Shown here piece by piece: positions 1-4,272 of a DNA stretch of 64,000 bases. The position numbers and the translations under genes are program-made. The DNA is from Fidelibacterota bacterium. GTDB taxonomy: Bacteria > Fidelibacterota > UBA8477 > JABMPR01. The DNA is taken from contig JABIFX010000253.1 of the NCBI GenBank assembly GCA_018650445.1, forward strand, positions 1-64,000. The letters run 5' to 3'. The notes under the pieces were generated by a model. That model was given only the letters and a program-made list of their open reading frames with translations, was not told the DNA's origin and searched no databases. Within the stretch, counting starts at the first letter, position 1. The number at the start of each line of letters is the position of its first letter.

Positions 1-3000
1 AAAGACACGTTTGATAGCAGGGACATAGCGCTCCATTGAAGATACCGCTATACGAATATCAGCTGGTGCAACATTATCCTTGATGAGTTGTCTGATTTGA
101 GCACCCACCAGCACCGCTTCCTCATAAATGGAAAAGCAGGGCGTGTAGGAATGACGTTTATCATCAGAGGGCATTTCCTCCTGTGACATCCAGGCTTCAA
201 TGGACATGTTGAAACCAGAGCTGGCTTGTCCACCCCGGAGTGGATCGAAAAATATCAGATCATGACTATCAGCAAGATCTTTTAAAAAGTCATAATCCGC
301 AGGAGATGTGGAATGAATTGAGTTCACGATGATTTTTATCGATGCCGAGAGACGCTTTAAGTCAGCATTTTGCCCAGGAGTCTGTATGGCTTGCTTCTCG
401 CACCAATCTAAAAATTCAGCATAAAGTTCCTGTTTTCCATCCGCAACAGATTCACCTCCTGTTGCTTTATAGAAAGCCTCTGCCATACGGTTGACTTCAC
501 CCCACTGCATTCGTTTCCCTGCAAGTTGTGCTATACCTAATCGAGTTAAATAGGGTGTTAGTCGACGACCAGTTGACTCTGTCATTTTGCGAACTTCACC
601 CAATGTCATGATTTGCAGCCTGGGGTGATTGAGTCCAACTTTGGCCAGTGATTGAGCCAACAGCTCGCCACTATTCTTAGTCGGCTCTATGATGAGTATT
701 TCTGCCAGATCATCCTGACGTTTTAATATTTCGATCAAATGGGGGTTTAGATCCTGAGCACCAGGTAATACTGGTTTTAAATCTCGTCCATGTTCGAAGG
801 TAGCCAGACCTGAAAAGTATAGGTCCTCTTCAAAGGCGATAGGAATCAGTGTGTCAAAACGATTGAAATAAAGTTCTCCACGTGCCTCTATCCCATACAA
901 ATACTTAAGCATCCACAGATAGGTTTGGATCTGGTACCAATAGGCGTGATGCTTCAACTGATTCTCATCGGGAACTTCTTTATCTGTTTTATAATCGAGA
1001 ACGACCCACTCGTCTCCACTCTGATATAGCAGATCAATAATGCCTGAAACTTTAAATACGTTGGTGCGATTCTTTAGAAAACCAAAGACTGGTATCTCTG
1101 GTAATTTATGGCCTGGATCAAGACTTGAGATTTTCTGCGCCAACTGGCTCTTACGATATATTTCAAGACAATCAGTAAGATCTTCAATAAATTGATTCTG
1201 GGTTTCAGATTCATTCACATTTCCGTCTTCCAGAAAAAGTCGGATCTGGTCTAGATAGTTTTCTGGAATAAACCATTCCATTTCCATGGCTCGGTGCAGG
1301 AGTAATCCAAAAGTTTTTGGTGCGGTTTCCAAATCCAGGTCGTCACCCACTTGACCTTCATCCGATCCAGCATATTTCTTTCTATCCATCCACTTCATGA
1401 TTGTGTGAGGCGAAATTTCACTATAAACCAGGGACTGCATGACTGGCTCTAGTTGAGTGATGTCAGCTGCTGCAGAGACAGGTCGTCCGGCTTCGGAGTG
1501 CAGAATATCTGACCCTGCTGTGAGATCATACGTCACAGCTGTAGTTGATCTGTTTTGCCATTCCTTTTGCAATGCATGGGGATCATTAAGCGCCAGATCC
1601 TTATCTAATTCGAGATCGAAGACGGGTTGCAGATATCTACCCCAGCGGGAAGTGGCGGGAGCTTTTGTATCTGGTTTGATTTTGGCAATAAAGCCAATTC
1701 CGAACCTGGCGCGAGTCACAGCAACATAGAACAGCCGTTTATCTTCGGCCTCTTCTTCGGCCCTGGTCTGTTCCTTAATCTGCTCATACATCCAGGTTTT
1801 GTGGCTGGCACTTCTGGAGTCCAGCGTGATACCGGCCTGCCGGTCACCATCATGGCGACCAATAAATACACCACTCCTGTCAGAAGGGATTGATGATTGC
1901 ATGCCCGGTAAAAGCACTACAGGATATTCCAGACCTTTGGCTTTGTGAATAGTTAGAATCTGAACTCTGGTGGCTCCTGGAAGTTCAGCCTGGGACGCAT
2001 CTCCATGTTGAATCTGGAATTTGAAATATTCATGTATCTCCCGGATGCCCAGACCATCGAGGGAAAGCTGATGAATGCTGTTAGTGATACGATCCAGATT
2101 TGCCAGCCTCAGTACGCCACCTGTTTCAGAAACCCAACTCAAACGTCTTTCATCCTCAGAAATAATCCGCTCAATGAGGCGATCCAGTGGTTCCCGGGCA
2201 CTGGCCTGCTGCCAGTCCCTAAGTGTATCACATATGTCAGGATGTAACTGTTTTAATCCGCTCCATACCCAACCCGAGCTACTTCGATCCTGGGCTACAT
2301 CTTTTAAGCGCTGAATCTCAGCATCTTTCATCACAAAGAAAGGGCTACGCAAAACACCCACCAGAGCCAGGTCGTCCAGAGGATTAACCAGCACACTGAT
2401 CAAGTGGTATATATCATAACTCTCTTGTTGCTCAAACAATCCTTTACTTGACAAGACCTCAAACTCAATGCCTTTGCTGGTGAAGATGCGGATATAATCC
2501 AGGATAGGAGTGAAGGATCTGAGCAGGATTCCAATGGCGGGTCCACTCTCTGGCTCTAACCCATTCTCATTTATCCATTTGAGCCAATCGAGAGTCAGGT
2601 CAGCCGTCTTAATAATATCAACTGCGTAACCTCTCGAGGCATCATCATCTAGTACTACACTCAATGAGCAACGAGCTACATCTCTTCTTTTACCAGTATT
2701 TAAATTGCTTTTAGCTGCATTTGTAGGACGGAATATAGTTTCGTATAATTCAAGGTCTTGTCGATCATCTTCACCTGGAAAGGCTGTGCTGATCAAGGGA
2801 TTAATCACTGATGAGACATATTTTTGAGATGAGCGATAGGTTTCGTCTGCAGTCAGAACCCATCCCCCTCCATCAGCAATGATGGAGCGGACACGATTCA
2901 TGACCTGAACATCTGCCTGGGTAAATCGATATATGGACTGCTTGGTATCCCCCACAATAAAGAGTCCCTGATCACGGAGGACTCCCTGACCAGCTTCTGC

Positions 3001-4272
3001 AATGAGCCGCACAATATCCCAGCGTACGTCATTGGTATCTTGAAACTCATCAAAGAGAATATGTTGGTAGCGTTGACCATAATGACTCGCAACTGTCTCA
3101 TCCTCCAGGATCTCTCTGGTTTTCAGCATGACTTCATTAAAGCTTAGGATGCCTTCACGTTTGAGACGTTGATTCAAAACCGCCCAGTATCCCAGAAAGA
3201 ATTTAGCAAGATGATGATTAACAATGCATGCTTCTAAATCCCACAGGTTGGGGATATCATGCATCAGGGCTTCATAAGGGAAGAGCTGCTCTGCCCTCTC
3301 CTTGAAAGCTCTTAAGCGCGTTCTGATTTCATCTTTAAAATCCTCAGGCCAGACCGTAGACGGAATCCTGGGGCTTTTTAAATAGTTACTGCGGTTTTGG
3401 GTGAGCGCAATGCGCCTGATAAACTCCAATAATTCCTGCCCATAGCGATAATCATCTTCAATGGGATTGCTTAACAGTTCCAGCAAATCTTTTAGATCCA
3501 CATATTGCGAGTGGCTGGTATCCTGCATGTCGTTGGGAGTGGGCAGTCCGTCCACCAGTTGAATCAGGGCCGGTTCTATCTCTTGTAAGGCCGGTGGAAG
3601 CGGATGCATCATCTTAAATTCAGATTGAAGCGCTTCAGGCGACGTACTACTCTGATGCTCCAGCCACCCTGTCATGAGCTGTGCATGGGATTGGAATTTT
3701 TTGATATACTCACTGATGTGCCGAACCGAGAGGTGGTCCAGCAATATGCTTAAGTCTGCATCGTTGTTGCGACTGCAATCCCCAAGATATTTCTCCCAGG
3801 TCTCCAGCTCCATGCGCTGTGTGTCAGCCTCGTCTTGAATCCGGAATTCTGGATCGATATCCAGACGTTCTGCCTGTTCCCTTAATATCTGGGCACAAAA
3901 TGAATCGATAGTGGAAATAGAATTTTTCGAAAATGTAGAACGTAGATGCATTTTGATTTTCTGAGGGGCAGATCGCAAATATGCGCCAAAATTCTCACCC
4001 ACATTGTCCAGAGCTTCATCATTTAGCAGCTTGTTCAAATCTTCATAAATACGGCCGGACATTTCTGCAGCGGCTTTGCGAGTGAAGGTGATAACCAGAA
4101 TATTTGAAGCATCTTTTCTGGGCAGCAGATTATCCTGTTGTTGCTGCCTCGCGTAATCATCCATGATAGCCGAGTAGCGTTTTGAAAGCAGCCAGGTTTT
4201 TCCAGCCCCTGCACAGGCTTCAATAAAGATGTTCTTATTGAGATCAAATACTTTGCTTAAATCAATACTCAT
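1..4272 (-). CDS. addA: AddA-type UvrD/RecB helicase-nuclease with AddB-like C-terminal extension (partial, runs off left edge)
   Basis: The ATG at 4272 opens a reading frame that I followed to base 1 and saw no stop; at least 1424 codons are present and the C-terminus lies outside the window. In order: Walker A (AGAGKT, about residues 22-27), a UvrD motif II (FDEFQDTN, about 405), GDTKQSIYRF (about 445), the late helicase motif TIHKAKGLEYPVVLLPG (about 770), VAVTRAR (about 850), and a RecB-type nuclease core (GIIDLLY...VVLDYKTDK, about 1075-1097). This is the normal end of an AddA protein. The frame then continues for about 300 residues. That part includes EAVLVGAQIRQLIKDN followed by ADIRIAVSSMERYVPAIKRVF, which resembles the start of the second half of AddB. 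The family does double-strand-break end resection for recombination. The helicase-nuclease call is firm; the AddB resemblance is judged by eye. Confidence 0.93.
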   Translation of the reverse strand, partial: MSIDLSKVFDLNKNIFIEACAGAGKTWLLSKRYSAIMDDYARQQQQDNLLPRKDASNILVITFTRKAAAEMSGRIYEDLNKLLNDEALDNVGENFGAYLRSAPQKIKMHLRSTFSKNSISTIDSFCAQILREQAERLDIDPEFRIQDEADTQRMELETWEKYLGDCSRNNDADLSILLDHLSVRHISEYIKKFQSHAQLMTGWLEHQSSTSPEALQSEFKMMHPLPPALQEIEPALIQLVDGLPTPNDMQDTSHSQYVDLKDLLELLSNPIEDDYRYGQELLEFIRRIALTQNRSNYLKSPRIPSTVWPEDFKDEIRTRLRAFKERAEQLFPYEALMHDIPNLWDLEACIVNHHLAKFFLGYWAVLNQRLKREGILSFNEVMLKTREILEDETVASHYGQRYQHILFDEFQDTNDVRWDIVRLIAEAGQGVLRDQGLFIVGDTKQSIYRFTQADVQVMNRVRSIIADGGGWVLTADETYRSSQKYVSSVINPLISTAFPGEDDRQDLELYETIFRPTNAAKSNLNTGKRRDVARCSLSVVLDDDASRGYAVDIIKTADLTLDWLKWINENGLEPESGPAIGILLRSFTPILDYIRIFTSKGIEFEVLSSKGLFEQQESYDIYHLISVLVNPLDDLALVGVLRSPFFVMKDAEIQRLKDVAQDRSSSGWVWSGLKQLHPDICDTLRDWQQASAREPLDRLIERIISEDERRLSWVSETGGVLRLANLDRITNSIHQLSLDGLGIREIHEYFKFQIQHGDASQAELPGATRVQILTIHKAKGLEYPVVLLPGMQSSIPSDRSGVFIGRHDGDRQAGITLDSRSASHKTWMYEQIKEQTRAEEEAEDKRLFYVAVTRARFGIGFIAKIKPDTKAPATSRWGRYLQPVFDLELDKDLALNDPHALQKEWQNRSTTAVTYDLTAGSDILHSEAGRPVSAAADITQLEPVMQSLVYSEISPHTIMKWMDRKKYAGSDEGQVGDDLDLETAPKTFGLLLHRAMEMEWFIPENYLDQIRLFLEDGNVNESETQNQFIEDLTDCLEIYRKSQLAQKISSLDPGHKLPEIPVFGFLKNRTNVFKVSGIIDLLYQSGDEWVVLDYKTDKEVPDENQLKHHAYWYQIQTYLWMLKYLYGIEARGELYFNRFDTLIPIAFEEDLYFSGLATFEHGRDLKPVLPGAQDLNPHLIEILKRQDDLAEILIIEPTKNSGELLAQSLAKVGLNHPRLQIMTLGEVRKMTESTGRRLTPYLTRLGIAQLAGKRMQWGEVNRMAEAFYKATGGESVADGKQELYAEFLDWCEKQAIQTPGQNADLKRLSASIKIIVNSIHSTSPADYDFLKDLADSHDLIFFDPLRGGQASSGFNMSIEAWMSQEEMPSDDKRHSYTPCFSIYEEAVLVGAQIRQLIKDNVAPADIRIAVSSMERYVPAIKRVF

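Follow-up and report, generated by a model that had tools for sequence, protein, structure and literature searches.

The window, a 64,000-nucleotide stretch of a Fidelibacterota genome, begins inside a long minus-strand gene whose frame runs stop-free from position 4272 to position 1, encodes 1,424 amino acids and is open at the left edge. AddA and AddB are normally the two subunits of AddAB, an enzyme that processes broken DNA. The original prediction was that the AddA-like frame of this gene does not stop after its nuclease motif, DYKTDK, and this was found to be so: 326 further in-frame residues follow the motif up to the contig end, and both EAVLVGAQIRQLIKDN and IRIAVSSMERYVPAIKR are found in this downstream part. 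Pfam and NCBIfam models recognised helicase domains of the UvrD type and a nuclease of the RecB type, which together extend to about residue 1136 (Table 1).

The first base of the window is also the first base of its contig (C252), and the first 139 bases of this contig are identical to the end of another contig of the same genome (C40). Reading C252 and C40 through the 139-base overlap gave a single frame of 2,069 amino acids with the C-terminus ...CAYCPYDRICRKTALPR, so that extension of the contig to the left, which the original prediction had proposed as a check, met no stop codon. The gene of a second species of the window genus (G011) is interrupted at the same position, where the overlap is likewise 139 bases long, and this shared break looks like a break in the assembly graph (de Bruijn graph). 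Joining the two contigs is sensible because relatives carry the whole gene on one contig.

Table 1. Features of the window gene (window positions) and loci of the re-split genus g19
Feature	Position	Strand	Basis or remark
Window part of the fused AddA-AddB gene, residues 1-1424	1..4272	-	Frame; other 645 residues on contig C40 (L003:140-2074:+)
Exact overlap with the end of C40; gene continues through overlap	1..139	.	Sequence identity
AddA-type SF1 helicase region, about residues 1-870	1663..4272	-	UvrD-helicase and UvrD_C; addA/recB models below cut-off; best PDB chain of full-length profile 3u44_A (AddA)
Walker A, CAGAGKT, residues 20-26	4195..4215	-	Motif alignment
Helicase motif II, DEFQDT, residues 408-413	3034..3051	-	Motif alignment
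AddA-type PD-(D/E)XK nuclease domain, about residues 980-1136	865..1335	-	Pfam
Nuclease motif DYKTDK, residues 1093-1098; a separate AddA would end soon after	979..996	-	Motif alignment
Junction or linker, about residues 1156-1190, limits approximate	703..807	-	No in-frame ATG in window gene; no start codon at a common position in the family
First part of AddB-like (helicase-like) region, residues 1191-1424	1..702	-	Profile comparison
Loci of genus g19	L145:5180-8197, L146:1933-3349, L147:5319-6155; L171:4092-7208, L172:4536-7670		D/DxK core travels with AddB

Distribution of the fused frame

We searched 245 genomes of the Fidelibacterota (the present name of the phylum formerly called Marinimicrobia or Candidatus Neomarinimicrobiota) with an AddB profile. 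A match of some kind, mostly weak, was obtained in 144 of them, and an unbroken fused frame on one contig was counted in 30. These frames measured 1,930-2,145 codons from stop to stop and were distributed over the family codes f1, f2, f4, f6, f12, f27 and f28, while the 31 fused copies from the 30 genomes measured 1,922-2,136 amino acids from the first start codon. Eight further genomes (G000, G008, G010, G011, G014, G016, G043 and G044) hold pieces of the gene that run to contig ends, and the three genomes of genus g19 carry a re-split form of the fused protein. The AddB part was matched by 25 of 40 relatives; it had no match in G006, of the window genus, or in G020 and G022, of the same order, where the AddA-profile matches were of UvrD size only. 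A second full-length copy lies on another contig of G007 (L027:3358-9567 and L029:3375-9584), and the second copy of G046, also on another contig (L138, L149), is a contig-end piece; each could reflect duplication of the gene or the presence of two strains in the bin.

Among the best 80 loci of a wider scan, one, from a Candidatus Neomarinimicrobiota MAG (L044, JAERTG010000095.1), carries the fused gene, with 83% identity in the best segment; no fused frame was seen in the other 79, where the longest AddA-matching frame is 1,379 amino acids from stop to stop. Nor was one seen in 40 genomes of the Calditrichota, the phylum of L045 (35 matched, longest 1,273), or in 200 genomes of the Campylobacterota, the phylum of L057 (3 matched). 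In the phylum to which L047, an Ignavibacterium record, belongs, 395 genomes were sampled and 158 of them matched, with no more than two candidates scored in each; none of the listed matches was a fused frame, and the longest of them was 1,420. These sets from outside the Fidelibacterota are samples and do not prove absence of the fusion. Viral contigs yielded no relative.

The long frame could in principle be an artefact of assembly or binning, with AddA and AddB encoded by separate genes in the cell, and the gene is indeed broken at a contig end in both the window genome and G011, where it is joined by a mere 139-base overlap. However, the frame is unbroken on one contig in the 30 genomes counted above; several of the contigs with the intact gene exceed 100 kb, and in G036 it lies on a single-contig genome of 2,788,509 bases. 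An artefact is extremely improbable, and for the family as a whole it was rejected, since seven family codes include genomes with an intact copy on one contig. The original suggestion of a one-chain AddAB is supported. No report of an AddA-AddB fusion was found among the open-licence papers listed, which, given that restriction, is weak evidence of absence, and the main text of one survey of recombination genes (PMC1193525) contains neither 'fused' nor 'fusion'.

The AddB part and the catalytic motifs

The alignment by hhalign of a profile of the AddB part (A2, 12 rows) with a profile of 18 split AddBs gave a probability of 100 and an E-value of 1.8e-64 over 854 columns. The tail had been predicted to resemble the C-terminal, second half of AddB; its likeness to AddB was upheld, but the restriction to one half was not, as the match spans columns 35-1054 of the 1,078 columns of the template, that is, a nearly complete AddB. 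It is shortened at the extreme N-terminus, in the region with domain 1B and in the latch segment. Against PDB sequences, the best match of the AddB-part profile was the AddB chain 3u44_B (E 1.8e-14). The match consists of four colinear stretches between residues 135 and 1131, the last of them over the C-terminal cysteines, and only two pass the E-value limit singly. The best chain for the full-length profile was the AddA chain 3u44_A (E 9.8e-70). Identity between the AddB part and split AddBs is only 15-19%, and phmmer with one split AddB as query gave no PDB match at 1e-20.

The 905-residue tail of L044 was modelled with AlphaFold2 from an input alignment that held 24 split AddBs. The model was middling (pLDDT 68.1, pTM 0.39), the relative placement of its domains not being readable. 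The five best Foldseek matches of this model were nonetheless all AddB chains (best E 3.4e-22), followed by RecC and AdnA chains, in agreement with the fold expected for the tail; the TM score was low (about 0.27), as is expected of poorly placed domains. The AddB part was folded alone, since in a test alignment for a joint model of the AddA nuclease and AddB the rows of the AddA nuclease were placed on the AddB nuclease, and the joint model was dropped.

Both halves lie far below the cut-offs of the NCBIfam equivalog models. The window part scored 256 bits with TIGR02785 (cut-off 708) and 237 with TIGR02784 (cut-off 861), and the part on C40 (691 amino acids) scored 39 with TIGR02773 (cut-off 904) and 25 with TIGR02786 (cut-off 487). 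Surveys relying on these AddA and AddB models could score such bacteria as AddAB-negative, both halves being missed by wide margins.

Catalytic motifs were counted in 32 fused proteins from 31 genomes (G007 contributing two), with the window gene joined and the composite g19 row excluded. The SF1A helicase motifs I-VI of AddA (alignment by eye, with Pfam for the window gene), the H-D-DxK residues of the RecB-type PD-(D/E)XK nuclease at the C-terminus of AddA, and the H-D-DxK residues of the PD-(D/E)XK nuclease of AddB (PDDEXK_1, E 1.1e-29) were each present in every one of the 32 proteins. The four Fe-S cysteines of AddB (CP..., C-x2-C-x5-C) were present in 28 of 32, including the window gene. 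As foreseen in the original prediction, the extension of the window frame contains another helicase-like region and another PD-(D/E)XK nuclease, which bears the four-cysteine pattern. The four cysteines are lost in G024, G208, G211 and G212 (L042, L133, L134 and L135), which form one clade in both the AddA and the AddB tree and keep the catalytic residues of the AddB nuclease; a four-cysteine Fe-S motif is reportedly carried by just a subset of AddBs. A Walker A motif was present in none of the 32 AddB parts, and the helicase-like N-terminal region is of the inactive type according to hhalign, the 3u44_B match and Foldseek on the middling model. Loss of Walker A was rejected as a hallmark of the fusion, 17 of 26 split AddBs also being without it in their first 60 residues.

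G036, the single-contig genome, has no PDDEXK_1 match besides the two inside the fused frame, and its sole other AddA-profile matches sit in one frame of 753 amino acids, the size of UvrD; no other AddAB, RecC or AdnAB-like candidate was found there. Additional PDDEXK_1 matches in 12 other fused genomes occur only in frames of at most 374 amino acids, and a second AddB-sized nuclease was not found in these 13 genomes. RecC (PF04257) was matched in none of 15 genomes, 13 of them fused, with a positive E. coli control, and RecA was found in 5 of 5 genomes. The window genome also encodes, on contigs other than those of the fused gene, two small proteins that match PDDEXK_1 (G000:C253:2291-3091 and G000:C4:2007-2801, in frames of 325 and 316 amino acids).

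Gene order, trees and the re-split genus

At all 28 of 28 external split loci with both genes recognised by profile, addB lies upstream of addA on the same strand, and the five split loci of the Fidelibacterota (G023, G025, G030, G034 and G241) likewise have the order addB-addA. The order of the fused gene, A-B, is the opposite, and the fusion is thus not accounted for by the mere loss of a stop codon in the usual operon. Fused rows were set apart by a branch in the AddA tree (35 of them, support 100) and again in the AddB tree (34, support 99). Both trees come from a quick method with a one-matrix model, with warnings that long branches meet and that residue composition is uneven. The AddA and AddB parts of the window gene occupy slightly different positions within the genus in the two trees, so that mixing of strains is possible in the window genome.

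One locus first taken as a split AddB (L155) was rejected as such when PF04257 identified it as RecC (E 6.1e-63); it remains in both trees and was removed before the latch counts. This RecC gene of G227 (L155:5084-8272) overlaps an AddA/RecB-like gene, so that RecC-type systems occur in the phylum alongside split and fused AddAB. Further members (L156-L164, L167, L168 and L170) encode, at the site of a weak match, a protein of about 1,000 amino acids that has helicase and nuclease matches of the AddA kind. Pfam, applied to L156 alone, showed a UvrD helicase and a PD-(D/E)XK nuclease in one chain, which is perhaps AdnAB-like.

In genus g19 (G054, G055 and G056), a frame starts just upstream of the catalytic part of the AddA nuclease and runs through AddB. 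This frame of AddA nuclease core and AddB measures 1,005 amino acids in G054 and is cut by contig ends in G055 and G056, and the genes upstream of it are homologous in all three genomes. The AddA helicase of G054 and G056 is a separate gene of 1,038 or 1,044 amino acids on another contig, which ends after the His motif of the nuclease and whose neighbours on both sides are homologous between the two genomes (78-88% identity); G055 gave no strong helicase match. As read from these sequences, the AddA nuclease fold of g19 is split between two proteins. In the AddA tree, the two g19 helicases are nested within the fused clade with a support of 96 (30-row set), so that the fission is most likely secondary. 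The trees agree with a single origin of the fusion, in the A-B order, followed by a re-split in one genus. Genus g19 provides a natural experiment on whether, in function, the AddA nuclease goes with AddB.

That g19 encodes two chains, and so tolerates their separation, speaks for a fused frame that is translated or processed into two polypeptides, by an internal start or by proteolysis, to give an ordinary AddA-AddB heterodimer; an ATG is moreover present at the junction in 18 of 32 rows. On the other hand, the positions of these ATGs differ among rows, the window gene has none in residues 1140-1200, a loosely defined Shine-Dalgarno-like pattern accompanies an ATG in just 1 of 32 rows, and the split in g19 is elsewhere, inside the AddA nuclease. 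No start codon or ribosome site is common to the junctions, which counts against an internal start, and production of two polypeptides from the fused frame is on the whole unlikely.

The latch segment and the probable single-chain enzyme

PMC4824097 describes an ionic latch in AddB, an insertion in domain 2A with the pair E129-R629, which is termed absolutely conserved. In the same paper, the AddB substitution E129A is reported to lead to a better response to Chi, hyper-stable Chi complexes and promiscuous conversion, and the gated-scanner model is probed with point mutants such as E129A and R629A. We checked the residue numbers of the latch against the sequence of 3u44_B. Measured from the EGxFP motif to the helix that follows (LFKQWL in the window protein), the span was exactly 24 residues in 34 of 34 rows of the fused clade and 33-42 residues in 26 split AddBs (5 from Fidelibacterota and 21 others). 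The combination of an acidic residue in the E129 column with a basic one in the R629 column was found in 2 of 34 fused-clade rows and 18 of 26 split AddBs, but the E129 region aligns poorly, and the difference in length is the firmer result. We treated the latch pair as a variable feature because 8 of the 26 split AddBs are also without it. The stretch from P1197 to E1385, which includes domain 1B, had a median length of 188 in fused and 262 in split proteins.

To judge from these lengths and residues, the fused AddAB seems to lack the Chi gate of the usual enzyme, and we infer that the shortened latch segment may cause the switch to the recombination mode to be gated differently, or more loosely, than in the AddAB of Bacillus. 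More tentatively, and with the odds somewhat against it, the Chi gate (the ionic latch) may have been removed altogether, the fixed linkage of A and B routing the 3' strand and the enzyme being promiscuously recombinogenic or responsive to hotspots without a latch barrier, with the nuclease of g19 assembled from two proteins. The uniform 24-residue latch segment provides a naturally occurring test case for the gated-scanner model of how Chi is recognised.

An AddB part shortened in its latch and 1B regions, the loss of the Fe-S cysteines in one clade, and the PADLOC matches to GajB and Cas4 models might all be expected if the protein were a relative that has degenerated or been put to another use, such as that of a defence nuclease, and is no longer a recombination enzyme. 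The PADLOC matches cover only the UvrD and nuclease folds and were rejected as defence systems for this reason. Against such a change of function, the helicase motifs and both nuclease cores are preserved in all of the 32 divergent proteins, G036 is without any other AddAB, RecC or AdnAB-like candidate, and RecA is present in the genomes searched for it. We regard it as very unlikely.

The gene very probably encodes a single-chain AddAB, a break-resection enzyme predicted to consist of AddA (about residues 1-1155), a short linker and a nearly complete AddB (about residues 1170-2069). By analogy with the known mechanism of AddAB, the AddA motor would unwind DNA at a double-strand end, the AddA nuclease would cut the 3'-ended strand and the AddB nuclease the 5'-ended strand, while the inactive helicase fold of AddB would lie on the path of the 3' strand and a 3' overhang would be left for RecA. 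A natural one-chain AddAB would be a fixed 1:1 form of a machine that normally needs assembly. We filed it as a variant of AddAB because it is encoded in one frame, in 30 of 245 genomes, rather than as two separate subunits; AddAB itself is known, and the single-chain form is a new variant of it.

The closest known system is the AddAB/RexAB of Bacillus subtilis (3u44/3u4q), with which the fused protein shares an active SF1 motor and a RecB-type nuclease in AddA, and an inactive helicase fold and a second nuclease with four Fe-S cysteines in AddB. Unlike it, the fused protein is one chain with AddA first, and its AddB part measures about 900 amino acids, with a shorter 1B region and a latch segment of 24 rather than 33-42 residues. 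The split addB-addA systems of the same phylum (G023, G025, G030, G034 and G241) have the same functional parts as the fused protein, whereas their genes are separate, their AddBs measure 1,042-1,065 amino acids, the length of their latch is in the split range, and they fall outside the fused clade. RecBCD is similar in that AddA resembles RecB and the helicase-like region of AddB resembles RecC, but RecC was matched in 0 of 15 genomes and the core of the AddB nuclease of the fused protein is intact. In AdnAB, of mycobacteria, both of the two chains carry a helicase fold as well as a nuclease. The fused protein resembles it in having two nuclease domains and SF1 folds, with weaker profile and fold matches; it differs from AdnAB in being one chain whose second helicase fold is without Walker A, and AdnA ranks below AddB among its fold matches.
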